This document shows, one piece after another, positions 25,781 through 47,861 of a stretch of 64,000 nucleotides of DNA (its first letter is position 1; each line of letters begins with the position of its first letter). Location of the stretch: the NCBI RefSeq assembly GCF_000019085.1, contig NC_010321.1:566501-630500 (forward strand), in the 5' to 3' direction. The stretch is from Thermoanaerobacter pseudethanolicus ATCC 33223. GTDB lineage: Bacteria; Bacillota; Thermoanaerobacteria; Thermoanaerobacterales; Thermoanaerobacteraceae. Under the pieces are notes generated by a model. That model did not search any database. It was not told the DNA's origin and saw only the letters and a list, made by a program, of their open reading frames with translations. The translations under genes were made by a program, and so were the position numbers.

Positions 25781-25856
25781 TGGTGCGCCTGACAGGAATT
25801 GAACCTGCGACCTCTCGGTCCGGAGCCGAACGCTCTATCCGCTGAGCTACAGGCGC
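25781..25856 (-). tRNA. tRNA-Arg (anticodon CCG)
   Basis: On the minus strand it folds as acceptor GCGCCTG/CAGGCGC, D arm GCTC-AGCGGATA-GAGC, anticodon arm TTCGG-CTCCGGA-CCGAG with anticodon CCG, variable AGGTC, T arm GCAGG-TTCAATT-CCTGT, discriminator A, and an encoded CCA at 25781-25783. It reads CGG codons. Confidence 0.95.
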
Positions 25857-28030: not shown

Positions 28031-28074
28031 CTAGTTTGCACATAGACATGGTAATACCTCCTTCCCCCTATAGC

Positions 28075-28256
28075 GAGATAGCTCTTCACTGAAGGCTCGG
28101 GAAACCTCCAGTGACAGTCCTATACCTATTCGGCATAGGCCCAGCTGCGTAAACTTTAAGGAATTTACGCGCTTCGGCGAGCATCCCTTTCATATACCTT
28201 CATCGGCCCTTAAATACCTCTGGTATACTACTCTTGATAACCCGCGCCTCTACCTC
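28075..28256 (-). ncRNA. Lysine riboswitch (L box) aptamer
   Basis: The minus-strand RNA begins GAGGTAGAGGCGC and ends GAGCTATCTC, which pair as P1 (GAGGTAG with CTATCTC). Inside are L-box landmarks: a TCAAGAGTA loop-E-like turn, GAAAGGGATGCTCGCCGAAG, CTGGGCC and ACTGTCACTGGAGG. It lies in the lysA leader between a TTGACA/TATTAT promoter and a terminator, exactly where L boxes are expected. Confidence 0.92.
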
Positions 28257-28306
28257 ACCTTCCAAGAAGATGAGGTATTGTTATTCAATTTTTTTATTTT
28301 TTTATT

Positions 28307-30215: not shown

Positions 30216-30234
30216 AAGGCGGTTATTCCGCCTT
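30216..30234 (+). terminator. Terminator hairpin after ugpC, first copy
   Basis: AAGGCGG-TTATT-CCGCCTT. The same 18 bases (AGGCGGTTATTCCGCCTT) recur at 30498-30515 after the structured repeat, there followed by TTATTTTTT. Confidence 0.8.
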
Positions 30235-30497
30235 AGACTGTAGACAAACTTTTTATATAACATGTTAGCATTTTGCATAAGTGTAGCGACTTGATAGAGC
30301 AGTAACTAAACTTAGCGAGGCTGAGAGGCGAAAGCGGGGCCGAAGCCAAGGAAGGCGGAGGCGGGCACTAAGTCAAGGATGACGAATGTGCCCGGAACCC
30401 CGCTTGAGCCCGAGGGCGAGCGATAGTTTAGTCTGCGATATCACCGGAGCGAACGATGCAAAATGCTAACAACGATAATTAGTTTGCCAGCAAACTG
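30235..30497. repeat. Structured ~263-bp repeat, copy 1 (possible ncRNA or MITE-like element)
   Basis: This GC-richer block is flanked by 18-bp direct repeats of the ugpC terminator. Nested complementary arms: GTTAGCATTTTGCAT (30264-30278) with ATGCAAAATGCTAAC (30456-30470); ACTAAACT (30305) with AGTTTAGT (30425); AAGCGGGG (30332) with CCCCGCTT (30398); GGGCAC (30363) with GTGCCC (30388). Copy 2 at 47579 keeps the same pairing with different bases. The ends, TAGACAAACTTT and AGTTTG(N)4CAAACT, are also complementary. No coding frame is conserved between copies. Confidence 0.75.
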
Positions 30498-30520
30498 AGG
30501 CGGTTATTCCGCCTTTTATT
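30498..30520 (+). terminator. Terminator hairpin after ugpC, second copy
   Basis: AGGCGG-TTATT-CCGCCTTTT with T run; a direct duplicate of 30217-30234 on the other side of the structured repeat. Confidence 0.75.
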
Positions 30521-47551: not shown

Positions 47552-47578
47552 AAGCGTCAAGATTTTGTCTTGACGCTT
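47552..47578 (+). terminator. Terminator after uvrC
   Basis: AAGCGTCAAGA-TTTTG-TCTTGACGCTT. Its first 16 bases (AGCGTCAAGATTTTGT) recur at 47846-47861 beyond the structured repeat. Confidence 0.8.
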
Positions 47579-47845
47579 CAGACTATAGACAAACTTTCGT
47601 AAAGGAGATATTTTGCATAAGGAGCGACTTGTTACAAAGCGATAACAAAACTTAGCAAGACCGAGGGTGGAGGCAGGGCCGAAGCCATGGATGGCGGAGG
47701 CGGGCACCTTAAGGCATGGATGCCGATTGTGCCCGGTACCCTGCCGGAACCTGAAGGTCGAGCTTTAGTTTTGTCGCTTTGGAACACCGGAGCGACGATG
47801 CAAAATATCTCCTTTGAACATTTTTTAACTTTGTCAACAAACTGG
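47579..47845. repeat. Structured ~267-bp repeat, copy 2
   Basis: Same architecture as 30235-30497. Paired arms: AAAGGAGATATTTTGCAT (47601-47618) with its complement at 47798-47815; ACAAAACT (47645) with AGTTTTGT (47767); GGCAGGG (47672) with CCCTGCC (47739); GGGCAC (47702) with GTGCCC (47729). Arms differ from copy 1 but stay complementary, while single-stranded parts such as GGGCCGAAGCCA and CACCGGAGCGA are conserved. Short open frames on both strands are by-products. Confidence 0.75.
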
Positions 47846-47861
47846 AGCGTCAAGATTTTGT

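Follow-up and report, generated by a model that had tools for sequence, protein, structure and literature searches.

The 263-bp element at 30235–30497 (+) of the window, designated copy c01, is very probably a miniature non-autonomous transposon that bears IS1182-family ends, targets terminators, and carries a conserved TwoAYGGAY-like RNA body, which is a possible CsrA decoy. The window is the whole stretch of 64,000 nucleotides that was analysed, positions 566501–630500 of a one-contig genome of 2,362,816 bases. A non-autonomous, terminator-targeting element had already been proposed in the first-pass annotation of this DNA, and the proposal is borne out by the empty sites, the IS1182-family ends, and the covariation described below.

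Copies in the window and insertion at terminator hairpins

Copy c01 begins with the left terminal inverted repeat AGACTGTAGACAAACT (30235–30250, +) and closes with the right one, GTTTGCCAGCAAACTG (30482–30497, +). Between them, the TwoAYGGAY-like RNA core, delimited from outer helix to outer helix with the covariance model R1, spans 30271–30464 (+) and includes two hairpins with GGA loops, i.e., hairpin 1 (GCCAAGGAAGGC, 30345–30356, +) and hairpin 2 (GTCAAGGATGAC, 30372–30383, +). To the left of the element lies the terminator stem-loop AGGCGGTTATTCCGCCTT (30217–30234, no strand assigned), a target-site duplication to which the T-tract is no longer attached; to the right, an exact 18-bp copy of the same stem-loop (30498–30515, +) has retained its T-rich tail. 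This exact duplication on both sides had been reported in the first-pass annotation and is present in the sequence, and the features that it assigned to 30216–30520 are all there, the element proper being confined to 30235–30497. Likewise, each window copy has the three stems that it named, with both arms of each stem changed from one copy to the other, the conserved loop GCCGAAGCCA is kept in both, and neither copy contains an ORF of at least 80 amino acids, in agreement with its claim that the element has none. When the folds of c01 and of the second copy, c14, were compared with dinucleotide shuffles, z-scores of −11.8 and −12.2 were obtained, with none of 100 shuffles equalling them.

Copy c14 (47579–47844, +, 266 bp) follows an intact left terminator hairpin located downstream of uvrC (47552–47578, no strand assigned), and its RNA core (47611–47806, +), which has ATGGAT in both loops, scores 30.5 bits against the TwoAYGGAY model, whose cut-off is 43. 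The right hairpin copy (47846–47860, no strand assigned) is partly deleted; as the empty site in genome G005 shows, its second arm was lost after insertion. A possible sigma-70-type signal, TAGACA-17-TATTTT, within the left end of c14 (47586–47614) did not exceed shuffle expectation, and no such pair was found at c01. The window also contains a lysine riboswitch (28071–28260, −, 132 bits) and a tRNA gene (25784–25856, −), both ordinary.

The absence of other copies, which the first-pass annotation had set against its own proposal, does not apply, since the window's genome holds about 25. A BLAST search with the element returned 26 places in this genome, two of which are the halves of one copy separated by another insert, and an extra 3′ end at 1984096 belongs to a truncated copy. 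The covariance model R1, built from 18 cores of the window's genome, has 15–91 matches in each of ten Thermoanaerobacter genomes, the window's own included, and finds one copy in six of nine Thermoanaerobacterium genomes; in a third genus, represented by one genome, it found none. In the phylum scan, in which at most eight candidates were scored per genome, R1 matched in 46 of the 299 sampled genomes, representing 35 of 214 genera. The plasmid and phage collections searched gave no match to the element.

Another small insert with inverted repeats (CCCGGCACTCAARTAA... in the window's genome and CCAGCACTCACTG... in Desulfovirgula) was seen inside or beside the element at c06, c24, and c25 (L006, L054, and L055, respectively) as well as at L274 and L279. 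It replaces part of the element in c06, c24, c25, and L274, and is perhaps a different hairpin-targeting element. Additionally, five copies (L020, L051, L053, L054, and L055) have a replaced segment, GCCACCTGACGTAGG or close to it, instead of GCCGATTGTGCCCGG, and GGGGAAGCTTATGTTT is common to c19, c23, and c25; such mosaic copies suggest that gene conversion may occur between copies. In G007 (L068, L085, and L092–L111), many copies have one common right flank with variable end points. An interpretation of these flanks as 3′ transduction was not relied on, since G007 is a 30-contig draft in which collapsed repeats would give the same picture.

A comparison with empty sites in sister strains, which the first-pass annotation had suggested, was made for 12 copies by joining their flanks with one hairpin kept and searching the product against the genus. 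All 12 loci proved to be empty in at least one sister genome, the match being contiguous, with a 6-base gap in the case of c14. Fifteen of these empty sites, which cover the 12 loci, were fetched and read, and each contains a single hairpin where the filled sites have two. The c01 locus is empty in G003 and G010 (98%), G007 (97%), and G006 (86%), and, by alignment only, in G004 (77%). G002 and G005 carry the element there, and G009 about 115 additional bases. The left stem-loop of c01 is single at the empty site in the four sister genomes read, and the duplicated stretch comprises 18–28 bases at 11 of the 12 tested sites.

The flanks were surveyed in 67 copies, of which 25 are from the window's genome, 40 from listed places in G002–G004, and two from G008. 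Of these copies, 58 showed both ends, and 57 were retained after the misparsed c24 had been dropped; the nine copies without recognised ends include c05, c07, and c20, which have other ends, and damaged copies. In 52 of the 57 copies (all but c08, c25, L135, L136, and L139), the left and right flanks were more alike than 99% of mismatched flanks; the 57 include orthologues (e.g., c17/L123, L118/L138, and c10/L142) and therefore represent fewer than 57 independent events. The first 32 bases of the right flank fold with a mean energy of −11.5 kcal/mol, as against −2.5 kcal/mol when shuffled, and reach −5 kcal/mol or lower in 54 of the 57. The mobility of the element is thus well supported.

Among the same 57 copies, a T-tract occurs only downstream in 12 and the complementary A-tract only upstream in 13, with both present in 22 and neither in 10. 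Since the first two numbers are nearly the same, there is no orientation bias with respect to transcription, and recognition of the target as a DNA palindrome, not through termination itself, fits the observations. A function at the 3′ end of mRNAs has to be considered here, in which the element would stabilise or process the upstream transcript and re-use the right terminator without any trans-acting partner. The position of the element within terminators agrees with this, as does c01, where the left hairpin is without a T-tract and the right one keeps it; furthermore, ERIC repeats are reported, in parts of PMC2229807, to affect the stability of upstream mRNA. However, the lack of orientation bias relative to the T-tract speaks against such a function, for which conserved loops would also be needless if mere stability were at stake, and we consider it fairly unlikely.

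Relation to IS1182-family insertion sequences

Matches to PF13751 are present in all ten Thermoanaerobacter genomes. For 19 of 30 such loci, a script checked whether both ends of the element were present: 13 have both, four the right end only, and two neither. Since L167 and L171 denote one and the same locus, there remain 12 distinct IS copies of 1560–1568 bp with the ends of the element, CAGACTGTTGACAAA and TTTGTCAACAAACTG. A duplicated palindrome surrounds ten of the 12, with a few differences at L167; no whole-hairpin duplication exists at L155, which has a 6-base repeat, or at L173, which has none. The 500-residue protein encoded by the ORF 541–2043 of L163 is assigned to the IS1182-family transposases by NF033551 (496.3 bits, cut-off 270), and the domains PF13751, PF05598, and PF01609 were also matched, in line with an IS1182-type DDE transposase.

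The element and the IS have the ends CAGACTGTWGACAAA and TTTGTCAACAAACTG in common; in the pair compared, the right ends are identical at 16 of 16 bases and the left ends are alike by eye. In addition to ends common to an autonomous IS, the element displays the other features of a MITE, i.e., target-site duplication with empty sites, multiple copies, a length below about 600 bp, and the lack of a transposase gene. However, a blastn comparison of one element with one IS revealed only the ends in common, so that the classical origin of MITEs by internal deletion of an IS does not hold, and the body of the element appears, from this comparison, to come from elsewhere than the parent IS.

We propose that an IS1182-type transposase acts in trans on the element, whose ends would be joined to the outer foot on each side of a palindrome; in most cases, this palindrome would be an intrinsic terminator, used in either orientation. 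Gap repair would then copy the whole hairpin onto both sides; after the insertion of c01, the right hairpin would have kept the T-tract, from which the left hairpin would have been cut off. The window's genome has a single PF13751 match, which contains a stop and has different ends, and no intact IS1182 partner. Because its own IS1182 relative is broken and ends differently, the copies of the element in this genome are probably immobile at present.

Another candidate for an autonomous partner, a multi-copy, near-identical sequence marked by AGACTGCAGACAAC (L045, L047, L049, and L050, at 45637, 91863, 149293, and 168087, with more elsewhere), was rejected, the four stretches containing no such element; it is perhaps a group II intron. 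Near matches to the left end at L032–L035, L037, and L038 were also set aside, as no adjoining element was evident by eye.

The RNA body and its other transposon ends

Selection on the body at the level of RNA is well supported by two features of the alignments, namely, covariation and a strand that folds better. Among the 18 copies of the window's genome, 15 of 55 pairs have changed on both sides. The number is 34 of 55 in an alignment of 20 sequences, which includes Thermoanaerobacterium, Desulfovirgula, Desulfofundulus, and the Clostridiales bin PH28_bin88, and 47 of 55 in an alignment of 41 sequences (40 distinct) from several Clostridia, these two larger alignments having been fitted to the model and thus leaning towards it. 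In all three alignments, the double-change count and the covariation score were equalled by none of 500 shuffles, which do not allow for the relatedness of the sequences; further pair types, the weakest of five measures, were reached by 6, 36, and 0 of 500 in the 18-, 20-, and 41-sequence alignments, respectively. Most of the covariation signal is gone when the partners are slid by 1–3 columns. The claim of the first-pass annotation that structure is under selection is thus upheld in each of the three alignments.

In the 41-row alignment, GGA is present in loop 1 of 36 rows and in loop 2 of all 41, with both loops carrying it in 36. In every one of the 41 sequences, folding is more favourable for the sense than for the antisense strand, the mean difference (antisense minus sense) being 14.9 kcal/mol versus 7.8 kcal/mol for shuffles, so that composition accounts for about half. 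In G008, two of the 15 copies were read, and in both the fold is kept and GGA is absent from the two loops. These two copies agree with a role of the structure in transposition as DNA, as a cruciform or a single-stranded hairpin, in which the GGA loops would be incidental; also in its favour are the preference of the partner for palindromic targets and the long, imperfect palindrome that the element itself forms. Such a role is unlikely in our judgement, because the advantage of the sense strand in 41 of 41 sequences goes beyond composition on average, and because interiors with GGA loops are also found on other ends and are therefore not specific to one transposase.

At curated thresholds, the Rfam search gave nothing on the element. 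A permissive search recovered RF01731 (TwoAYGGAY) on c14 and not on c01, and at E-values of up to 10, all of its 15 matches in the window's genome fall on the element repeats, with 12 at E-values under 0.05. The best scores are 36.9 bits in the window's genome, 40.4 in the genus, and 42.7 in Thermoanaerobacterium, and the gathering threshold, below which Thermoanaerobacter thus stays unlike the accepted family, is 43. Nevertheless, the body resembles RF01731 in its two adjacent GGA-loop hairpins on a long interrupted stem, in full-length model matches (1–168) on most of the matched repeats, and in G-A pairs beside hairpin 1, recognised by eye, such as are described for the family in part of PMC4333381. 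Paired hairpin loops of the AYGGAY kind are present, the strict AYGGAY motif being realised only partly (AAGGAA and AAGGAT in c01). On these features, the body is best described as a diverged relative of RF01731. The new class of non-coding RNA envisaged in the first-pass annotation is therefore only partly right. Its suggestion of a covariance model and an Rfam search led to the family throughout the genus and to RF01731 only below threshold. A match to an IS end or to an Rfam family had been named there as evidence to the contrary; those that were found weigh weakly in this respect, and they explain the element and do not dissolve it.

In G036, a genome of the same order, RF01731 has 32 matches at E 0.01, of which 20 are above the cut-off, and in G035, all three matches are; in G036, the accepted TwoAYGGAY family is itself a dispersed repeat. 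Among 15 additional stretches scanned, six, all from Lachnospiraceae, scored above the threshold (82–112 bits), and at E 0.1 no match was obtained on five R1-found loci scanned from further genomes. Two above-cut-off copies from one Lachnospiraceae MAG, L264 (3017–3181, −) and L291 (4698–4861, −), are parts of a longer repeat that both have in common and that is bounded by inverted ends near GTTACTGTTCAG...CCTTAGCCG, and by eye they also look mobile. A table of 2010 (PMC2864571, in part) gives TwoAYGGAY as a probable RNA, probably without a cis-regulatory role, and the passages considered here contain no statement that it forms the body of mobile elements.

Related bodies occur on further ends. 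In the window's genome, c05, c07, and c20 have different ends; those of c07 (GTCCGTGTCAAG... and ...TTTTACACTGCC) match the ends found, about 1.4 kb apart, around a weak IS256-family fragment (L260), and direct repeats of nine bases at c05 (TTTAATTAG) and eight bases at c07 (TTTTTCTC) are visible by eye. G036 and G035 have the end sequences GATTTAGGTGTAAGAAC...CTTTGTACACTAAAATC, or close variants of them, with both present in 13 of 19 stretches (12 without the orthologue L228), and in five of the 12 (L212, L217, L222, L224, and L225), direct repeats lie above the 99th percentile of the mismatched-flank controls; no PF00872 transposase was found in these two drafts. The ends in G218 are CTGAGTTATCCCCAGTTTT or close to it, and repeats of 9–10 bases are above every control in four of seven (L312, L316, L317, and L318), while those in G157, G258, and G289 are different again by eye. 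Judged from these sequences, at least two end types, and probably four or more, carry related bodies.

The single copy in six Thermoanaerobacterium genomes lies between genes resembling those for a carboxyl-terminal protease and a glycerate kinase, as named from the translations and flanks read, and is oriented one way in two genomes and the opposite way in four. The sequences immediately adjoining it agree between L072 and L073, which have one orientation, and L074, which has the other, and this indicates a probable inversion in place; one or both flanks differ in L071, L075, and L076. Inverted repeats similar to AAGACAATTTTGA are located at the ends of L071–L076, and a possible invertible switch was noted. 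In G018, another genome of this genus, in which R1 found no copy, a weak TwoAYGGAY match (L230, 37.7 bits) with a single GGA hairpin occupies a different locus. The Thermoanaerobacterium locus may be a host gene of ancestral origin or an element that became stranded there. A single copy at a fixed place in six of nine genomes, together with the conserved RNA structure, would accord with a host sRNA or 3′ UTR element that had been copied by ordinary genome duplication, the flanking terminators being independent of it. As a whole account, this is refuted by the single-hairpin empty sites at 12 of 12 loci, and it is further contradicted by inverted repeats common to an IS and by the 15–91 scattered copies; we regard it as highly improbable for the element at large and as possible for the Thermoanaerobacterium single-copy locus.

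A possible CsrA decoy, an RNA cassette, and known systems

The likeliest role of the transposon body, which we hold with somewhat less than even confidence, would be the binding of CsrA via the two GGA-loop hairpins, making the RNA a decoy wherever it is transcribed. The loops are mostly CANGGANG, which we take to resemble the CsrA site consensus, and, as in CsrA-sequestering sRNAs, several GGA hairpin loops are present per RNA (both loops in 36 of 41 rows). The csrA gene is found in 35 of 37 genomes of the class, including every genome with the element, and the two genomes that lack csrA also lack the element. No element was found in 17 CsrA-bearing genomes of the class, comprising 13 of one family (f4) searched with RF01731 and four of another (f1) searched with R1, namely, G001, G016, G017, and G018, the last with its weak RF01731 match elsewhere. 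Against CsrA binding stand G008, which has csrA and whose two read copies are without GGA loops, and the five of 41 rows in which loop 1 is without GGA. In the part of PMC4333381 considered, TwoAYGGAY matches a CsrA-site model and CsrA-binding sRNAs are proposed in Clostridia, CsrA-sequestering sRNAs having been identified, as of 2014, only in Gammaproteobacteria.

Since bodies of this kind are also found in other Clostridia, on different transposon ends, the RNA is best viewed as a cassette borne by several transposons. In its widest form, this would make TwoAYGGAY-type RNA a transposon-independent, CsrA-titrating cassette that unrelated transposons of Clostridia (IS1182-type, IS256-type, and with further ends) have acquired, that spreads decoys and uses the target terminators as its own 3′ end, and that has a single invertible host locus in Thermoanaerobacterium; this is possible, though we hold it as doubtful. 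If true, it would represent a bacterial counterpart of SINEs carrying a host RNA. The findings place the orphan TwoAYGGAY family in a biological setting, namely, within mobile elements whose body it forms; they document IS1182-type insertion with duplication of the whole hairpin, and they make it testable whether mobile elements have spread binding sites of the global regulator CsrA. The effect could be broad, given that 46 of the 299 genomes sampled from the phylum contain matches.

MITEs, IS1182-type hairpin targeting, and TwoAYGGAY-like RNA are each of a known kind. Their combination, with an orphan RNA as transposon body, several end types, and duplication of the whole terminator, was not found in the literature search; among the titles and abstract openings covered, none calls TwoAYGGAY mobile or describes the repeat, which is weak evidence, as subscription papers are mostly outside that scope. 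The sRNAs CsrB, CsrC, and RsmX/Y/Z carry GGA motifs in hairpin loops, as does the RNA of the element; unlike them, the latter has two sites only, is located on a mobile element in Clostridia, and its binding is predicted. Among bacterial MITEs, bcr1 of Bacillus cereus is one with RNA structure. The element resembles IS1272, of the IS1182 family, in the transposase family of its partner IS and in the use of stem-loops, often terminators, as targets without sequence specificity (PMC5678879 and PMC4923244, in part). In the same parts of these sources, IS1272 and TnSha1 delete or replace their stem-loop targets with no duplication, and whole-stem-loop duplication is drawn in PMC5678879 only as a possibility (pathway b). 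In contrast, the element and its partner IS mostly duplicate the whole stem-loop, and deletion of the stem-loop is not what was found. Like NEMIS/Correia, ERIC, and CIR, the element is short, non-autonomous, and present in many intergenic copies whose transcripts are predicted to fold (PMC2229807 and PMC10969869, in part). However, it differs from these and from bcr1 in a fold that covaries extensively across genera, in the several end types found on related RNA bodies, and in having the terminator hairpin as its target.
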